Virus record (IMG/VR): IMGVR_UViG_3300042478_001834
Span: 1 to 29,544 of that record
Direction: 5' to 3' (one strand)
Source of the DNA: a virus
DNA length: 29,544 bases
The notes beneath the pieces were generated by a model. That model did no database searches. It was not told the origin of the DNA and saw nothing but the letters and a program-made list of their open reading frames with translations. Below, piece by piece: positions 10,002-29,544 of this stretch. Position numbers and translations under genes: made by a program. Within the stretch, counting starts at the first letter, position 1; each line of letters opens with the position of its first letter.

Positions 10002-11645
10002 ATGCCGTCAGTCAAGATATCAGAACTACCAATATTAAACCAGTTATCGGCTAATAATGCCAATACCGTGTTTGTTGCCGTAGATAAGACCACCAATACA
10101 ACTTCACAGTTTTCAACCACCACATTGGCTGGAGGACTATTTGCAAACAATGTATTGAATGTTGGAACATCTGCAACCACAATATATGCTGATGCGATTG
10201 CACAATTCGTTAGTAATACAGCACCTAGTTCTAGAGTATTTTTTCAGAACATCAATCCAAAAGGTACTGGTCAGATTGTAATTGCTACGGATGATGGTGA
10301 TGAAGCCAATGGATTTATTAATATGGGTATTCGTGGTTCAAATATGGACTATGATGCTGAATTTGATTTGCCTAACCGTGATGGCTTCATTTGTATGCAT
10401 GGTAAAGATGGTGAAGTATATGGAAATTTGTGGATAGGCACACACAATTCAAATAATGATATTGTTTTCTATACAGGTTCACACACGATTGCTGCTGAAG
10501 CTGTTAGAGTAGAAGATAATGGGAATTTAAAATTAAGTATACCATTACAATTTAGTGATTCAACAACACAAAATACGGCTGCATCGCCAGCTGCGGTTAC
10601 TTTAGCTGCACAAGCAAATACAATTATTACACAAGGTGTTGATGCTACACAGAACACCAGATTAAATTCTATTGAAACCATCAACACCAATCAAAATACC
10701 AGCATCTCTATCATTGAAGGTGTCAATCTCGCACAGAATACAAACATAACTACTGCTAACAACCATGCATGGGCAGCTTTCACTAAAGCAAATAACGCAT
10801 TAGCAAATACTTCAGGTACTTTTGCTGGTGATTTGACTATTACAGGTAATGTATTAACTACTGGTACAATCAGTTTAAACAATTCATCATTTGCTACCGA
10901 CACCGCATTTGTTAAAATTACCTCAAGCGATGGTTTTGTTACTCAGGCTCCATCAAACACCAACTATATGTTGCACGTTACTGGCAAAGCCAATTCTGTA
11001 ACTCGTGTTGTTTTAGATAGTTTTGGTGCAAACACCTATCCTTTGGTAGCTGGTCGTATGGGTCGAGGATCAGCCGCAGCACCAGTCGCAGTAGCAAACA
11101 ATGATGTGATATTCCGAGTTGTTGGCAACGGTTGGACAGGCACACAGTTTCCATCTTCTAGTCCCACAAAGATTGATTTTGTGGCAGCAGAAAATTTTAG
11201 TGATACTAATCGTGGTACTCGTATTGAGTTCTGGAATACTCCTGTAGGTTCAAACACACTACAAGAAATTGCTTCATTCAATGCAGATTCGGCTGAATTC
11301 CTTGGTACAGTTAATCCAACAAAGGGTTTCATTTTTACACCACGACTACCTGTTGGTAATCAAACGGCCATTACAATCGATTTTTCAAGTGATGTAGTTA
11401 TCAAAGCCAATTTAGCAGCTGACTTAACATTTACACTTACAAATTTTGTTGCTGGTAAAGTGGTTGAAGTTTGGTTAATCAATACGAGTGGTTCAACTAG
11501 AACCATTACACATGGATGTTCAGCAACTAATTCAAGTGAAAATTCCACCACATTTACGATGGCTTCAACTAGTTCTGCATACCTAAAATATTTCAGTATT
11601 GATGGTGATTTAGCAAATACATTTGTAGCAGTCCAATCAGCTTAA
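10002..11645 (+). CDS. Tail-fibre-like protein inserted between wedge genes 7 and 8
   Basis: This 547-residue protein starts with 'PSVKISELPILNQLSANNAN', an N-terminal module known from phage fibre and structural proteins. A coiled-coil-like repeat with QNT motifs runs from about residue 212 to 265 (GVDATQNTRLNSIETINTNQ and following). A recurring phage fibre module follows at about 345-430: 'AGRMGRGSAAAPVAVANNDV', then 'IDFVAAENFSDTNRGTRIEF'. The C-terminal 95 residues (LTFTLTNFVAGKVVEVWLIN and following) form a beta-rich tip. In T4 genes 7 and 8 are adjacent, so a fibre-type gene here is unusual compared with T4. It may encode a short fibre or decoration fixed to the wedge. The alternative is a baseplate protein that replaces T4 gp9, gp10 or gp11. 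Receptor binding is inferred from architecture. Confidence 0.72.
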   Translation: MPSVKISELPILNQLSANNANTVFVAVDKTTNTTSQFSTTTLAGGLFANNVLNVGTSATTIYADAIAQFVSNTAPSSRVFFQNINPKGTGQIVIATDDGDEANGFINMGIRGSNMDYDAEFDLPNRDGFICMHGKDGEVYGNLWIGTHNSNNDIVFYTGSHTIAAEAVRVEDNGNLKLSIPLQFSDSTTQNTAASPAAVTLAAQANTIITQGVDATQNTRLNSIETINTNQNTSISIIEGVNLAQNTNITTANNHAWAAFTKANNALANTSGTFAGDLTITGNVLTTGTISLNNSSFATDTAFVKITSSDGFVTQAPSNTNYMLHVTGKANSVTRVVLDSFGANTYPLVAGRMGRGSAAAPVAVANNDVIFRVVGNGWTGTQFPSSSPTKIDFVAAENFSDTNRGTRIEFWNTPVGSNTLQEIASFNADSAEFLGTVNPTKGFIFTPRLPVGNQTAITIDFSSDVVIKANLAADLTFTLTNFVAGKVVEVWLINTSGSTRTITHGCSATNSSENSTTFTMASTSSAYLKYFSIDGDLANTFVAVQSA

Positions 11646-19543: not shown

Positions 19544-21351
19544 TGGCCAATACAATACCAATTCTTAGTTTCACCAACACATTTGGTGATTTACTCACAC
19601 AACAAAACCGTCAAGCGGTTGAGTTAAACAATTTAGCTGCAAACAATTATACTAAAGATTCTGGTACATTGTTCTTAGATGGATCCGGTACAGGTTTATC
19701 TGTAACGGCTGCAGCATTGTTAGGTTCTGGTGTTGTTTCGGGTACATTATCTGTGGGCGGAAGTGTATCAGCTGTGTCAAATGTGTTTATTAATGGCACC
19801 GGTAATGGACTAGAGGTTGCCAATAACGCACTAATCCGTGGTGACTTAGTTACAAATCAAATTACAGCTAACACATTAATCAGAGCAAACACATTTAATG
19901 CTGCTGGTAATGTTTATGCTAGAGATATATCTGCAAATAATATCGTAAGAACAACAACACTTAATGCTTCGGGTAATGCTTTTGTAAACACACTACAATC
20001 CAATGGCGCAATTTCTGGAGCTGCAGCAAATATTGTTGGTAGAATTATTACCAATTCTTTGATTTCAAACACTACGATTACAGGTTCAACGTTATTAATT
20101 TCAAATGATGCTACGGTTAGTGGTCAGTTAGCTGTTGGTGGTAATTTTATTATTGTAGGAACAACGGTGTATAACACCAATAGTTTCACTATTAATGCAA
20201 ATAGTTCTGTTGGTTTAAATAGCACCTTTGCAGTCAATCGTGGTACTTCTGGTGCTAATGCAGTAATTCGTTGGAATGAAACCAACAAATATTTTGACAT
20301 GAATGATGTTGATAATGGTTTATTTTATCGTGTATTAACCGATGAATATTTAAGTGACTCAACAAATCTTGCAAGTTCATCAAACGTGGCCACATCTTTG
20401 GCTGTTAATTATTTACAGAATGTTAACAACACTCAGAATACTCAAATATCTGGTATTCAAGGTGTAGACTCAACACAAAATACACAAATTGGTGTTATTC
20501 AAGGTGTTGACTTAGCACAAAACACCAGAATGTCTATCATTGAAGGTGTTGATGCTACTCAAAATACACGCCTGAATTCTATCGAGACCATTAACAGTAA
20601 TCAAAATACCACGATTACACAAGTCAATCAGTTTGCTGGTGGTGCTTATGCAACGGCAAACGGTGCTAATGGTCTGGCTGCCGGTGCTTTCAATACAGCC
20701 AACAACCGTGTTAGTTCTGTATCAGGTACCTCGGGTCGTATCACATCTACTGGTGGTTTAACACCAGTCCTTGATTTGACCACGGCAGGACCTGGTGCCA
20801 CATCAGCAACCAATTCCTCACTAACAATTGATGCCTATGGTCGTGTAACTGCTCTCAGTTCTGGCACTGCACCAGTTACCTCGATTACAGGCACAGCGAG
20901 TCAAATTACTGTATCAGGTACCACGACACCAACATTATCTTTACCACAAAATATCGCAACGGGTTCTTCTGTCCAGTTCGGTTCGTTTGGTGTAGGTACA
21001 GCGGCCTCTGGCACAACAGGTGAGATTCGTGCAACCAATAACATCACCGCATACTATTCGGATGATAGATTAAAAACCAAATTAGGTAACATCCAGAATG
21101 CTTTAGAAAAAATTATGTCACTCAACGGATTCTACCATGAAGCCAATGAAACCGCACAGGCATTAGGATATAAACCTGTTCGTGAAGTTGGTGTTTCTGC
21201 ACAAGAAGTCAATGCTGTTTTACCTGAAGTGGTGGCACCAGCACCAATCGACCCACAGTATATGACTGTTCGATATGAGAGAATGATTCCGTTGTTAATT
21301 GAAGCAATCAAAGAGTTAAAAGCTGAGATTGACTCAATTAAGAAAAATTGA
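19543..21351 (+). CDS. Tail fibre with C-terminal S74 self-cleaving chaperone domain
   Basis: In this 602-residue protein, residues 60-190 are N-rich beta repeats (GNVYARDISANNIVRTTTLN type). About 192-272 is a fibre module (VSGQLAVGGNFIIVGTTVYN, then an NRG...WNE pattern) shared with the proteins at 22288 and 26266. Residues 294-363 are five exact 14-residue units with a QNT core. The last 97 residues are an intramolecular chaperone of the S74 type. It starts at S506 in 'SDDRLKT' with K511 five residues on, the spacing of the Ser-Lys dyad in endosialidase-type chaperones. It ends in a helix (MIPLLIEAIKELKAEIDSIK). The domain should aid trimer folding and then be cut off at S506. The start overlaps the preceding stop. 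The target receptor is unknown. Confidence 0.85.
   Translation: MANTIPILSFTNTFGDLLTQQNRQAVELNNLAANNYTKDSGTLFLDGSGTGLSVTAAALLGSGVVSGTLSVGGSVSAVSNVFINGTGNGLEVANNALIRGDLVTNQITANTLIRANTFNAAGNVYARDISANNIVRTTTLNASGNAFVNTLQSNGAISGAAANIVGRIITNSLISNTTITGSTLLISNDATVSGQLAVGGNFIIVGTTVYNTNSFTINANSSVGLNSTFAVNRGTSGANAVIRWNETNKYFDMNDVDNGLFYRVLTDEYLSDSTNLASSSNVATSLAVNYLQNVNNTQNTQISGIQGVDSTQNTQIGVIQGVDLAQNTRMSIIEGVDATQNTRLNSIETINSNQNTTITQVNQFAGGAYATANGANGLAAGAFNTANNRVSSVSGTSGRITSTGGLTPVLDLTTAGPGATSATNSSLTIDAYGRVTALSSGTAPVTSITGTASQITVSGTTTPTLSLPQNIATGSSVQFGSFGVGTAASGTTGEIRATNNITAYYSDDRLKTKLGNIQNALEKIMSLNGFYHEANETAQALGYKPVREVGVSAQEVNAVLPEVVAPAPIDPQYMTVRYERMIPLLIEAIKELKAEIDSIKKN
20422..20631 (+). repeat. Five tandem 42-base units coding for QNT coiled-coil-like repeats
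   Basis: Residues 294-363 of the S74 fibre divide into five 14-residue units: VNNTQNTQISGIQG, VDSTQNTQIGVIQG, VDLAQNTRMSIIEG, VDATQNTRLNSIET and INSNQNTTITQVNQ. The unit has a fixed QNT at positions 5-7 and hydrophobic residues at 1, 9 and 12. The bases differ more than the residues, so selection keeps the protein pattern. Confidence 0.85.
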
Positions 21352-24524: not shown

Positions 24525-25076
24525 ATGGATAACAACAAGTATTTAAATTATTATGTAGAGATATTAACTAGTACAATGACTGATGCAGTTATCAGAAACA
24601 TATCTCTACAAGCTAATGCAAGAGTTACTGAAGATGTTATTAATGAGCAAGTAAAAAGAATTGAAGAATTAAAAAGTAATTTAGAATCAATTAAAACTGA
24701 TAAAAATCAAGAAATTGAATCTAAAATTAATAATCTTGAAAGCGCTGTCAAAGGACATTTAGATACCATTAATCATTTAAATGTTCAAATGGCAGAGTTG
24801 AATAGGATGAAAACTGAATATGAAAATGTTAAACACCAAGTTCAACATGTTAATGTTTTTCGTGATGAATTAAATAAAGAACGAGAAGAACACCAAAAAA
24901 CTCGTACAAATTTTGAAAATCAAATTAAAGAATTAACTAATCAAATTGAATATTTACAATTAACTCCTGCCAAGCGTAAGAAATTAGAAGAAGAAAATAA
25001 AGTTTTGGAAGTACTGAAAGAGTCGTCTGTTTTACCTATTAATGATGATACAACAAAGGATGGCGGAAGTTTTTAA
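24525..25076 (+). CDS. K/E-rich coiled-coil protein, possible fibre-assembly or structural accessory factor
   Basis: This 183-residue protein has the best ribosome-binding site of the window (AGGAG at 24514-24518, six bases before the ATG). The N-terminus (DNNKYLNYYVEILTSTMTDA, then 'VIRNISLQANARVTEDVI') is a conserved head I recall from uncharacterised T4-like aquatic phage proteins. Residues about 40-165 form a long charged coiled coil (IEELKSNLESIKTDKNQEIE and on). The tail after 165 is short and polar. Its composition (K, E, Q, I) differs sharply from the N/T/A-rich fibre proteins on both sides. A chaperone or linker for fibre trimers is possible, by analogy with small assembly factors near T4 fibre genes. 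No homology to gp57A or gp38 is visible. The function remains open. Confidence 0.75.
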   Translation: MDNNKYLNYYVEILTSTMTDAVIRNISLQANARVTEDVINEQVKRIEELKSNLESIKTDKNQEIESKINNLESAVKGHLDTINHLNVQMAELNRMKTEYENVKHQVQHVNVFRDELNKEREEHQKTRTNFENQIKELTNQIEYLQLTPAKRKKLEEENKVLEVLKESSVLPINDDTTKDGGSF

Positions 25077-25080
25077 GTAA

Positions 25081-26229
25081 ATGGCAAATACAACACTACA
25101 GTTAAAAAAATCAGGCGTAACAGGTAATGTACCTTCTTCACTAGAATTTGGTGAGTTGGCGTTAAACTACGCCGATGGAAAACTGTATTACAAAGCTGCT
25201 AACAGTTCTATCACTTACATTCAAAGTGGTTCAACTACTGATTCGTTTGCAACAATCAATGCAAACAGTTCTTTAATTCTTGCAACATCTCCTACAGATA
25301 CTTTGTCAATTGTTCCTGGTAATAATATTACCATTTCAGCTTGCACATCAACAAAAACAATCACAATTAATTCTCAAGATGCTGATGTGGACCAGTTTGC
25401 GAGAAACACCGGAAACTCAGCATTAACATTAGCTCAAGATGCTTACAATTATGCCAATACTCTTATTGTATCTTCAACGGATCAGTTTGCTAGAGATACT
25501 GCCAATTCAGCTTCAGCCAATACTATCATAACGCAAGGCGTTGATTCTTGGCAAAATACACAAATTACGGCTGTTAACCAATTTGCACAATCGGCTTACG
25601 ATCAAGCGAATACTGGCGGCGGCGGTGGTACAACAGTAACAATTTCTAATGATAATACTTCAAATAATGTATACTATATTAACTTTACTGCTAATACATC
25701 AGGCACTGCAAACACATTATTTACATCAAATAATAATTTAACATTTAATCCATCAACAGGAACCATTGGTGTTAAAGCTATAAATCTAACTGCAAATACA
25801 AATATATCTGCAAATACAATAGATTTAACAGATACCAGTCAAGTTACAATAGATTCTTTTTCAACTTCTGTATATAGAAGTGCTTTCTATCAAGTTCAAC
25901 TTTCCAGTCCAAGTGAATTTCATATGTTGAACTTAAATATAATTCACAATGGTATTACAGTTTTTGCAAATACTTTTGGTGATGCATATTCTTCTTCATC
26001 TTTAGGTTCATTTACTGGTTCCATTGTTGGAACAACATTAAATGTTTTGTTTACACCAACCAACAGTTCGGTAACCGTAGCTTTCATTAGAAACGCAATA
26101 GCTAGAATAGGTGTTGAAGCTCCTTCAGGTTCTTTAGGATTTGTTGGGGATCCAGTAACGGCAATATTTGATGCAGGATTTGACTTGGATGCAACAACAT
26201 CTTCATTTGATTACGGCACCGTGGGTTAA
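25081..26229 (+). CDS. Fibre-type structural protein with QNT repeat and YR/HN domain
   Basis: This 382-residue protein starts with the shared N-terminal module (MANTTLQLKKSGVTGNVPSS, then 'FGELALNYADGKLYYK'). About residues 60-105 are a beta segment (INANSSLILATSPTDTLSIV). Coil-like parts with 'DQFARNTGNSALTLAQDAYN' and 'VDSWQNTQITAVNQFAQSAY' cover about 103-180, followed by a glycine hinge (GGGGG). About residues 258-345 form the 88-residue domain that recurs in the next two proteins (DSFSTSVYRS...HNGITVF...). The acidic tail (FDAGFDLDATTSSFDYG) is unique. The start is 4 bases after the previous stop. It is probably a baseplate or fibre protein with a carbohydrate- or partner-binding beta domain; there is no direct evidence for its ligand. 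Confidence 0.78.
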   Translation: MANTTLQLKKSGVTGNVPSSLEFGELALNYADGKLYYKAANSSITYIQSGSTTDSFATINANSSLILATSPTDTLSIVPGNNITISACTSTKTITINSQDADVDQFARNTGNSALTLAQDAYNYANTLIVSSTDQFARDTANSASANTIITQGVDSWQNTQITAVNQFAQSAYDQANTGGGGGTTVTISNDNTSNNVYYINFTANTSGTANTLFTSNNNLTFNPSTGTIGVKAINLTANTNISANTIDLTDTSQVTIDSFSTSVYRSAFYQVQLSSPSEFHMLNLNIIHNGITVFANTFGDAYSSSSLGSFTGSIVGTTLNVLFTPTNSSVTVAFIRNAIARIGVEAPSGSLGFVGDPVTAIFDAGFDLDATTSSFDYGTVG

Positions 26230-26265: not shown

Positions 26266-27651
26266 ATGGCCACACAATTACAACTAAGACGAGGGAATAC
26301 AGCTCAAACGGCGGTGTTTACCGGTGTTATTGCTGAAGTTACCGTTGACACCGATCAAAAAACATTAACGATACATGATGGTACCACGGTTGGCGGAAAT
26401 TATTTAATCACTAAATCTCAATTAGAATCTAATGTTTCTATAATTGCAGGCATCAATTCTACTCAAAACACCAATATTACAGCAGTCAATGGATTTGCTG
26501 CAGGTGCTTTTAATACTGCTAATGGTGCTAATGGTCTGGCTGCTGGTGCATTTAATAAAGCTAATACCAATGCTGATGCGATTGCTGTCATTCAAGGTGT
26601 TAATTTAGGCCAAAATACCACAATTACTGAAGTAAATCAATTTGCTGCAGCTGCTTATGCTACTGCCAATAACAAATTCAATTCATCAGGTGGAACAATC
26701 TCTGGTAATGTTAACGTAACCGGTAATTTAAGTGTTACTGGAACAACATTTTATGCGAACACAGAACAGTTACTTGTTAAAGACAATATCATTACATTGA
26801 ATTCAAATGTAACTGGTGTTCCAACACTTGATGCCGGTATTGAAATTAATCGTGGAAGTGAAACAAATACAGTATTGAAATGGAGTGAAACAGACCATGC
26901 GTGGAAATTCACTAACGATGGCACAAATTTCTTTAGAATTGCTGATACAGACAGAGTTAACTCCGCTTTCTCGTTAGCTAATACGAACGCTAGTAACATT
27001 ACAATTATTCAAGGTGTCGATTTAACACAGAATTCAGCCATTAGTATTATTCAAGGTGTTGATTTAGCACAAAATACCAACATTACTGCGGTCAATCAGT
27101 ATGCACAATCATCTTTTGGTGTCGCAAACTCAGCTTTAACATTGGCTCAAAATGCTTATAACTACGCCAATACAATATCGGTTTTAACAAACAACACCGC
27201 TTCTTTTAGTCTTGAATCTAACGGTATTATTATATTGCCAGCATTGTCTGCATTGTATAATAATACGGCAACGTTTTCAACATCCACGGCAAATCAAATA
27301 TTTGATACTTTTTCAACTACTGAATATAGAACCGCAAAATACTTAATTCAAGGTGTATCTGGAATCGATGTTCATTCTACTGAAGTAATATTGAACCACA
27401 ATGATACTAATGTATTCATGTTGGAATATGGTACCGTATATTCAAGCAGCATTCTATTTAATTTAGATTCATATATTATTTCTGGAAATGTAATTCTTGA
27501 TATTACTCCAGTGGAAACGGACACAACAATAGACTTTGTTCGCACCAGTTTAGTTGCAAGAATTTTGAGTGGAATCGAAGGTGACTTAATGACACAAAGT
27601 GGAACGGACGACTTGAATATTGGTTCAGGAACAGAAGATTTAAATATATAA
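26266..27651 (+). CDS. Fibre-type structural protein with two QNT regions and C-terminal YR/HN domain
   Basis: This 461-residue protein begins with the shared module (TQLQLRRGNTAQTAVFTGVI, then 'VDTDQKTLTIHDGTTVGG'), here in the 'LQLRRG' form that is widespread in phage fibres. The first QNT and 'NGANGLAAGAFN' region covers about 56-140. The module at 149-227 (VTGNLSVTGTTFYANTEQLL, 'AGIEINRGSETNTVLKWSET') matches parts of 19543 and 22288. The second QNT region (IIQGVDLTQNSAISIIQGVD) follows at about 245-300. The 88-residue YR/HN domain lies at 347-434. The end carries a short tandem motif (TDDLNIGSGTEDLNI). A perfect late promoter precedes it and another overlaps its stop codon. It is likely a fibre or adhesin subunit. 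Confidence 0.8.
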   Translation: MATQLQLRRGNTAQTAVFTGVIAEVTVDTDQKTLTIHDGTTVGGNYLITKSQLESNVSIIAGINSTQNTNITAVNGFAAGAFNTANGANGLAAGAFNKANTNADAIAVIQGVNLGQNTTITEVNQFAAAAYATANNKFNSSGGTISGNVNVTGNLSVTGTTFYANTEQLLVKDNIITLNSNVTGVPTLDAGIEINRGSETNTVLKWSETDHAWKFTNDGTNFFRIADTDRVNSAFSLANTNASNITIIQGVDLTQNSAISIIQGVDLAQNTNITAVNQYAQSSFGVANSALTLAQNAYNYANTISVLTNNTASFSLESNGIIILPALSALYNNTATFSTSTANQIFDTFSTTEYRTAKYLIQGVSGIDVHSTEVILNHNDTNVFMLEYGTVYSSSILFNLDSYIISGNVILDITPVETDTTIDFVRTSLVARILSGIEGDLMTQSGTDDLNIGSGTEDLNI

Positions 27652-27684: not shown

Positions 27685-29544
27685 ATGGCAAAGACACTAC
27701 AACTAAGACGTGGAACAACAGCAGAAATTACTGCAAATACGCCTGCATCGGGTGAGCTGTTTGTTGATACGCAAAAGAAAACTGTTACTGTTGGTGATGG
27801 ATCAACAGCTGGTGGTATAATTCTTGCAAGAGATGATAGGGTTTCTGATGTGTTTACCACAGCCAATGGTGCTAACGGTTTAGCAGCTGGTGCTTTTACC
27901 ACAGCCAATGGTGCTAATGGTTTAGCAGCTGGTGCTTTTACCACAGCCAATGGTGCTAACGGTTTAGCGAGTGGCGCATATAATCAAGCCAATGTAACCA
28001 TCGGTGTAGACTCAACTCAAAACACCAGAATTAATTCAATTGAGACCATTAACACCAATCAAAATAATAGCATTACCATTATTCAAGGTGTTGACACAAC
28101 TCAAAACACCAGAATTAATTCAATTGAGACCATTAACACCAATCAGAATACCAGTATCACTGTCATCCAAGGTGTTGATCTTACACAGAACACCAGATTG
28201 AATAGTATTGAAACTATTAATAGCAATCAAAATACCACAATCACAGCAGTTAATCAGTTTGCTCAATCTGCTTATAACCAAGCAAATACTGGAGGATCAG
28301 ACCAATATGCCAGAGATACTGCCAACGGTGCCTATAACAAAGCAAACACGGGCGGCACATTTACCGATTCAGTCACAATTAACCAAAATTTGACCGTTTC
28401 TGGTAATGTTAATATCAATATATCTTCAATAAGCACCAAGACAGCAAATTTAACATCAAACACAGCTAATCAAGTTATTGATTCTTTTTCCTCACTACTT
28501 TACAGAACAGTCAGATATGTTATACAAGGTATTAATTATCAAAATGTTCAATCGATGGGAGTAATGTTAAGCCATAACGATTCTGATGTTTATATCGCTC
28601 AATATGACACAATAGGTTCCAATACAAGTTTATATACCGTATCAAGTAATTTGTCATCAAATATAGTAAATTTGTTAGTAACTCCAGTAAATTCAAATAC
28701 ATTTTTTGATGTGGTTCGCACCAGCATTGTTGCAAGAACATTGACACCTTTCGTGCCTCCACCGCCACCAGTCCTTGCTTGGTCTGCCGGCGGCACCATG
28801 AGTACTGGACGGGATAAGATAGCAGCAGCAGGCACCCCAACATCAACACTAGGCTTTGGAGGATACATTGCGGGCCCAGCAGGCCCTGGCACACAATCTG
28901 CTGCAACAGAAGAATATGATGGATCCACATGGTCTGGAGGAGGCAATTTGCCAACGGTTACAATGAATCATGCTGGGGCAGGAACACAATCTGCAGGACT
29001 GTCATTTGGCGGCCTCGGTGCTGCGTATGCGCCATTAACTGTTGCACAAGAATATGATGGAAGTGCATGGGCTTCCGGCGGATCCTTAGGCTCAGCTAGA
29101 TATGGCCATGGAGGATGCGGAACTCAGACAGCAGCACTGGGTGTTGGTGGCAAATCGGGGCCCTCAGGTGTTCTTAATTCAGTTGTAATATACGATGGAA
29201 CAAGTTGGTCCACCGGGGGCCCGCCAACAAATCTGGCCACCGGCAGACAGAGCAATGCTATGTTTGGAACACAATCTGCTGCAGTAACCTCAGCCGGCCT
29301 TGACGGTTCGTTTGTGCCAATAACGTCTACTGAAAATTGGAACGGTGCCGTCTGGTCGGCAGGCGGAGCCTTACCATCTGGTCGATTGGGTGCAGCCGGA
29401 AGCGGAACACAAACTGATGGATTGATATTTGGCGGCAATTCCGCTGGTGCATTAACAGCAGCGCTAACATACAATGGATCCACATGGACCGCAACTGGAT
29501 CATTGACGACTGGCCGATTCCAACATGGCGGAGCAGGCACAGCA
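27685..29544 (+). CDS. Modular tail fibre with kelch-like propeller tip, 3'-truncated by the window
   Basis: The frame is open from the ATG to the last base (620 codons), so the C-terminus is missing. Residues 1-52 are the shared N-terminal module (KTLQLRRGTTAEITANTPAS, then 'GELFVDTQKKTVTVGDGST'). Residues 57-98 are three copies of a 14-residue unit (FTTANGANGLAAGA). Residues 108-191 are six 14-residue QNT units. Residues 266-353 are the YR/HN domain. A proline hinge (PPPPP, 358-362) leads to kelch-like repeats of about 44-52 residues, each with 'F/V-GG', 'YDGSxW' and 'GGxL' elements. Five are complete and a sixth is cut. Behind the hinge GGC, GGA and other C-ending codons become frequent, while the earlier part prefers GGT and A/T-ending codons. 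The propeller probably binds a surface glycan or protein; this is inference from fold type. Confidence 0.85.
   Translation, partial: MAKTLQLRRGTTAEITANTPASGELFVDTQKKTVTVGDGSTAGGIILARDDRVSDVFTTANGANGLAAGAFTTANGANGLAAGAFTTANGANGLASGAYNQANVTIGVDSTQNTRINSIETINTNQNNSITIIQGVDTTQNTRINSIETINTNQNTSITVIQGVDLTQNTRLNSIETINSNQNTTITAVNQFAQSAYNQANTGGSDQYARDTANGAYNKANTGGTFTDSVTINQNLTVSGNVNINISSISTKTANLTSNTANQVIDSFSSLLYRTVRYVIQGINYQNVQSMGVMLSHNDSDVYIAQYDTIGSNTSLYTVSSNLSSNIVNLLVTPVNSNTFFDVVRTSIVARTLTPFVPPPPPVLAWSAGGTMSTGRDKIAAAGTPTSTLGFGGYIAGPAGPGTQSAATEEYDGSTWSGGGNLPTVTMNHAGAGTQSAGLSFGGLGAAYAPLTVAQEYDGSAWASGGSLGSARYGHGGCGTQTAALGVGGKSGPSGVLNSVVIYDGTSWSTGGPPTNLATGRQSNAMFGTQSAAVTSAGLDGSFVPITSTENWNGAVWSAGGALPSGRLGAAGSGTQTDGLIFGGNSAGALTAALTYNGSTWTATGSLTTGRFQHGGAGTA
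27853..27978 (+). repeat. Three tandem 42-base repeats
   Basis: Units at 27853-27894, 27895-27936 and 27937-27978 encode FTTANGANGLAAGA twice and a diverged third copy ending LASGA. The first two differ by a single base (AAC/AAT for Asn) by eye, so the duplication is recent. Related single copies sit in the proteins at 19543 and 26266. Confidence 0.9.
28006..28257 (+). repeat. Three tandem 84-base repeats (QNT coil-like)
   Basis: Units start at 28006, 28090 and 28174. Each encodes 28 residues made of two 14-residue halves (VDxTQNTRxNSIET and INxNQNxxITxxxx). The first two units are nearly identical at the base level, and the third differs more. The same unit, with synonymous changes, appears in the proteins at 10002 and 19543. 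Confidence 0.88.
28771..29544 (+). repeat. Kelch-like propeller repeats with shifted base composition
   Basis: After the proline hinge the protein shows successive units ending in EEYDGSTW, QEYDGSAW, VIYDGTSW, ENWNGAVW and LTYNGSTW. Each is followed by a glycine pair (SGGGN, ASGGS, STGGP, SAGGA, TATGS) and an R-rich strand such as 'SARYGHGG' or 'TTGRFQHGG'. The unit length is about 44-52 residues. The frame remains open at the window end. Confidence 0.75.

Follow-up and report, generated by a model that had tools for sequence, protein, structure and literature searches.

The gp38 adhesins and long-tail-fibre tips of T-even phages such as T2, PP01 and S16 are distal, exchangeable specificity modules, in which a conserved glycine-rich framework is combined with hypervariable loops (PMC12892980). 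In the metaviromic islands of marine phages, fibre C-termini vary among concurrent, near-identical phages while the N-terminus is conserved, and the tips reported in the accessible part of that account are YadA-, C1q- or lectin-like (PMC3909814). Modular tailspikes and receptor-binding proteins keep an anchor and exchange the C-terminal tip; as far as the excerpted accounts extend, they are beta-helix depolymerases (PMC8262889, PMC10408124). Six-bladed kelch propellers are also known in phages, as giant phages encode kelch virion proteins, among them CBB_552, which mass spectrometry detected in the virion (PMC5259590).

The stretch of DNA analysed here, referred to as the window, is a fragment of 29,544 bases, IMG/VR record IMGVR_UViG_3300042478_001834. 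Its last tail-fibre gene very probably encodes a composite fibre with an exchangeable propeller tip, gained by recombination and putatively binding a receptor. This tip shares with gp38 its distal position, its exchange and its glycine-rich framework with variable loops. However, gp38, a polyglycine-II sandwich, is a protein of its own placed on the gp37 trimer, whereas the kelch propeller of the window is fused to its fibre in one polypeptide through a proline hinge. As in the metaviromic islands and the modular tailspikes, the N-terminal part is kept and the C-terminal tip is replaced, but the accessible part of the island account describes no kelch propeller, no proline-hinge border and no foreign relative of a tip, and the propeller is not a depolymerase of the beta-helix type; no enzymatic signature was found in it. 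Unlike the window fibre, the jumbo-phage kelch proteins are separate, with neither a stalk fusion nor a shown exchange (PMC5259590), and the likeness of the window propeller to CBB_552-type proteins is weak (12-14% in fold matches). Searches of the open-access literature yielded no description of a proline-hinged kelch propeller that is exchanged as a fibre tip. Fibre tips that are exchanged and kelch proteins in phages are both on record; their combination appears to be new.

Organization of the fibre gene

Three fibre genes lie in tandem downstream of baseplate genes (25081-26229, 26266-27651 and 27685 to the window end; features of the third in Table 1). The contig L003 (IMGVR 3300042521_001770) is 100% identical to the window across 4,593 bp, starting at 24952. 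The two possibly represent one population and count as one observation, and all contigs compared here are metagenomic fragments. L003 supplies the rest of the last fibre gene, whose product has 644 aa with the stop directly after ...STEKYN; the gene thus has 72 further coding bases beyond the window. The phage is a T4-like myophage, with matches to the Gp6-like family PF21379 (1.5e-16) and phrog_219 (5e-151), gp6-like and other baseplate proteins in the window, and neck and sheath-stabilizer families in L003. Further downstream of the fibre, L003 carries a gene whose sequence is sulfotransferase-like (L003:5667-6434; phrog_27463, function unannotated), which is missing from the equivalent place in the sister phage described below, and a 2OG-Fe(II) oxygenase gene (L003:6449-7042), a type also present among the metaviromic island genes (PMC3909814).

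Table 1. Features of the last fibre gene, in window coordinates
Feature	Position	Strand	Basis or remark
Third, last tail-fibre gene	27685..29544	+	ORF table; 620 codons inside window, truncated by window end
Mtd_N domain (Major tropism determinant N-terminal domain), virion-proximal fibre end	27700..27807	+	Pfam PF18454
Repeat-built stalk	27845..28254	+	Direct repeats D1, D2; L064 alignment
Stalk C-terminal beta-sandwich domain, about 95 aa	28462..28746	+	Family alignment A4; AlphaFold; PDB match
Junction and proline hinge FVPPPPPVLA	28749..28779	+	Nucleotide alignment with L064; sequence
Kelch blade 1 (WSAGG...YDGST)	28780..28929	+	Blade HMM; AlphaFold model
Kelch blade 2	28930..29067	+	Blade HMM; AlphaFold model
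Kelch blade 3	29068..29205	+	Blade HMM; AlphaFold model
Kelch blade 4	29206..29352	+	Blade HMM; AlphaFold model
Kelch blade 5	29353..29484	+	Blade HMM; AlphaFold model
Kelch blade 6, start	29485..29544	+	Truncated by window end; complete in L003 (to L003:4665)

The head of the protein matches Mtd_N over residues 6-41 (E 4.1e-11, 43 bits against a cut-off of 26.3), which places it among the Mtd_N-type fibres. The stalk behind it is built from three copies of a 42-nt unit (TTANGANGLAAGAF) and three of an 84-nt unit (IQGVDTTQNTRINSIETINTNQNTSIT). As the 84-nt units are missing from the aligned stalk of the sister phage L064 and repeat copy number is unequal, fibre length varies too. Repeats of the TANGANGLAAGAF / QNTNI type are found in several different structural genes (26451-26565, 20423-20703 and 10611-10850), and such units seem to be common to different structural genes of the window. 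The beta-sandwich domain that ends the stalk is common to all three fibres of the phage; its core is modelled with a pLDDT of about 90, and its best PDB match is T4 gp9 (E 3.7e-5, TM 0.63). Since the two neighbouring fibres terminate in this sandwich and have no propeller, the propeller is an addition behind the normal fibre end. T4 gp9 is trimeric, and the gp9-like stalk domain would therefore predict three propellers per fibre. In a related phage, an ORF of >1,165 aa in the fibre region (L083:6325-9819) has SVAIG repeats as in the YadA head and represents an alternative fibre type.

The sequence-only reading had recognized propeller repeats with YDGSxW and GG elements behind the hinge. These are present: the HMM gives six blades, and the ring is closed in L003. 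The propeller begins at the W of a c-d turn and ends in STEKYN, which are two halves of one YDG-W turn; because both ends share this turn, the ring closes between them, and STEKYN completes the outer strand of blade 1. The AlphaFold model is of high confidence (pLDDT 95.9, pTM 0.92), among PDB structures it matches kelch domains best (human NS1-BP, KLHL proteins and the designed SAKe6), and a sequence profile leads to KLHL2 (2e-22). Among 78 aligned propellers the W, G and Y columns are invariant, so that the kelch motif is present. Pfam returned no match in the propeller, and Kelch_1 was matched weakly in only 6 of the 78 relatives; Pfam is insensitive for these propellers, as the profile and fold searches both give kelch. 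All 78 match PHROG 27227, a family without annotation (best E 1.2e-67). The matched part of this family is the kelch propeller, and the family can be so named.

The hinge and the composition break

The five prolines of the hinge occupy 28756-28770 (codons CCT CCA CCG CCA CCA) and are followed by VLA-W. Position 28756, where the hinge had been placed from the letters alone, is exactly the first base of the first of these codons. A sharp border had been claimed at this point as well, and GC changes there: in 300-bp windows GC rises from 0.31 (28450-28749) to 0.55 (28750-29049), stays >0.5 up to the window end, and falls back to 0.366 past the fibre stop codon on L003. The GC of the propeller is 0.540, against 0.493 predicted from its amino acids with the codon use of the phage and 0.365 for the phage itself. 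About 73% of the rise is amino-acid composition (Gly/Ala); GC12 goes from 0.43 to 0.63 across the border, and glycine makes up 21.6% of the propeller residues.

Composition does not account for the remainder. Given its amino acids, the propeller would be expected to have a GC3 of 0.20-0.23, whereas 0.332 is observed (z 4.6-5.6), and the shift lies almost wholly in the glycine codons, whose choice differs between the propeller and the rest of the phage (p=3e-13). GGT is used at 12 of 62 glycines in the propeller compared with 475 of 705 elsewhere (19% vs 67%), GGC at 25 of 62 compared with 90 of 705 (40% vs 13%), and GGA at 22 of 62 compared with 128 of 705. Alanine, threonine, proline and valine codons show no significant difference between the propeller and the rest of the phage (p 0.13-0.84). 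The sequence-only reading, which had GGC, GGA and GCC rising behind the hinge, was thus right for the two glycine codons and not for GCC (0.17 vs 0.18). Likewise, its sharp border exists in total GC and in the alignment with the sister phage, but not in GC3 alone, where the best single change point lies at 29206 and improves the likelihood only weakly, by 4.2. Glycine content by itself does not explain the codon bias, since a synonymous shift with z of about 5 is left over.

Viral contigs coding for relatives of the propeller were collected and their blades called by HMM. Complete ORFs most often have six blades (153 ORFs) or 12 (109), then 18, 24 or 30, with few other counts; the multiples of six indicate that the unit is a six-bladed propeller. 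In many viral contigs (L036, L008, L037, L021 and others) two or three kelch-propeller genes stand in tandem. Each product combines a short module at its N-terminus (EGQIWYN...) with 6 to 30 blades, the count of 30 being reached in a protein of about 1,937 aa, and these genes apparently form arrays of multi-propeller surface proteins. Across 334 propellers, GC3 tracks that of the other genes on the same contig (r=0.83), and its mean is below theirs (0.10 vs 0.15). The sister phage L064 (+5.7 SD) and the window phage (+4.4 SD) deviate upwards further than any other, by values that are descriptive rather than probabilities because many of the sequences are related. The codon shift is not a property of the kelch domain.

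Annotated phage records gave no propeller match in DNA or tblastn searches, to which low-complexity masking of the glycine-rich repeats probably contributes. Scans of all viral contigs for hinge patterns returned 59 and 44 stretches, with kelch propellers only in L003 and the foreign contig L004 described below, so that a propeller behind a proline hinge is rare. Bacterial and archaeal genomes of 84,980 species hold only 14 loci, mostly on MAG contigs, and hence no cellular donor is indicated.

A sister phage and a foreign relative of the propeller

The sister phage (contig 3300042542_002103; L064/L081/L086) is 94% identical in nucleotides to the window phage across 9 kb of baseplate genes. 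Over the last 141 stalk codons before the hinge, L003 and L064 differ with pS 0.061 and pN 0.009 (99% aa identity), compared with pS 0.69, pN 0.38 and 44% aa identity in the propellers. Nucleotide identity stops at 28748 and the break, at 28749, adjoins the hinge, while both sisters keep the reading frame, the proline-rich hinge and the stop-side gene order. Saturated synonymous sites adjoining near-identical DNA mean that recombination replaced the propeller in at least one of the sisters. Comparison of tips among close relatives, which the sequence-only reading had proposed, thus finds a kept stalk, a different tip and a sharp border, and the alternative that all relatives carry the same hinge and propeller does not hold. 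At the level of sequence, the propeller is shown to be an exchangeable cassette between the proline linker and the stop codon. No donor of the sister's propeller was found.

The nearest propeller found for that of the window is on L004 (3300044618_001634, 64 kb), with 76% aa and 79.5% nt identity, exact runs of 52, 40, 39 and 37 nt, and similarity that reaches the stop codon. It is encoded downstream of a T4-type major head protein, as a protein of 307 aa consisting of an unrelated 20-aa N-terminus, eleven prolines and the propeller. The L004 phage has a GC3 of 0.37. Its contig has no match to the gp6-type protein or the stalk domain of the window, and its neck protein is only 27% identical to that of the window phage. 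In a tree of 30 propellers, L003 and L004 are joined with support of 100/100, and forcing L003 together with L064 costs 131 log-likelihood units and is rejected (AU p=1.07e-5). Propeller phylogeny therefore conflicts with phage phylogeny, as the earlier reading would have it, and its claim of two origins with a transferred propeller is supported by the sister comparison, the tree and the synonymous shift together. As judged from the tree and the shared runs, the window propeller is shown to have recent ancestry in common with the propeller gene of a distantly related phage.

Because the propellers are not identical (dS about 0.3), L004 is by its divergence related to the donor rather than being the donor itself. 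The divergence is also uneven, with pS 0.45 in blades 1-2 and 0.16 in blades 3-6 (Fisher p=5e-6), suggesting that part of the propeller was exchanged once more.

Origin and putative function of the propeller tip

Most likely, the propeller serves as a flexibly linked tip for receptor binding, and recombination in or close to the CCN-repeat linker would have exchanged it between phages. From its Mtd_N-type head, the composite fibre would then run through the repeat stalk and the gp9-like beta-sandwich to the proline-rich linker, which carries the six-bladed kelch tip. The direction of transfer, which we infer from composition, would be from a higher-GC phage (GC3 about 0.35-0.4, like the L004 phage) into the recipient, whose codon use the gained propeller would not yet have taken on. 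With its short tract of CCN repeats and its flexible hinge, the linker may tolerate a crossover; with only three proline-hinge propellers known, it is a possible preferred crossover site. The loop face of the propeller may be presented to a cell-surface receptor, so that exchange would alter adsorption specificity and may affect host range. Variation peaks in the b-c loops, where entropy is 2.3 bits compared with 0.7-1.9 at other positions, and between the window propeller and L004 the pN/pS of blades 3-6 is 1.33 in these loops and 0.70 in the remainder. In kelch domains such as Keap1, the b-c loops are part of the ligand face. A wider version, in which a cassette of proline linker and kelch propeller circulates among distant T4-like phages, with crossover in the CCN tract and blade shuffling inside the propeller, is possible but doubtful.

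Three other accounts would dispense with the transfer of a propeller. It is very unlikely that the GC and codon break is merely intrinsic to Gly/Ala-rich kelch repeats. Such repeats do explain most of the raw GC step, as the share due to composition, the rise in GC12 and the glycine content attest, but homologous propellers of like make-up have a GC3 no higher than the phage that carries them, an excess of >0.03 occurs in only 6 of a first set of 209, and the sister comparison, by which this was refuted as a full explanation, is like the tree independent of composition. Less credible still is divergence in place, in which the sisters inherited one propeller that has since been under strong diversifying selection. 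The loops are indeed the most variable part, and in comparison with L004 those between strands b and c of blades 3-6 have a pN/pS above 1; selection at the protein level, however, cannot give a saturated propeller beside a stalk of pS 0.06, and the nearest relative of the propeller sits in another phage lineage, joined with it in the tree. This account was rejected as a full explanation. A diversity-generating retroelement (DGR) or similar targeted mutator acting on the tip can be given hardly any credence. The fibre starts with Mtd_N, and the tropism determinant of the Bordetella phage, which a DGR mutates, is of this family; yet no reverse transcriptase (RVT_1) is found in the window and three related contigs, all of them fragments, and the differences spread across the whole domain, many of them synonymous, rather than being adenine-specific at a few codons.

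That the domain was transferred but serves in virion decoration, assembly or catalysis rather than receptor binding is unlikely, though it deserves consideration. The L004 propeller is a short protein of its own, whose gene lies close behind that of the major head protein, and galactose oxidase is among the kelch folds. Against such a role, the propeller forms the distal fibre end in the window phage, and variation on the loop face together with exchange between sisters is typical of adhesion tips.

The receptor-binding tip exchanged by recombination remains the preferred reading, and the two sisters offer a natural pair with a near-identical stalk domain, two propellers and one hinge border, so that tip exchange can be tested in uncultured T4-like phages with no need to grow them. 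The unannotated family PHROG 27227 gains a structural identity as a kelch adhesin candidate. Comparing the GC3 of a propeller with that of its own phage can further serve to flag recent tip transfers.
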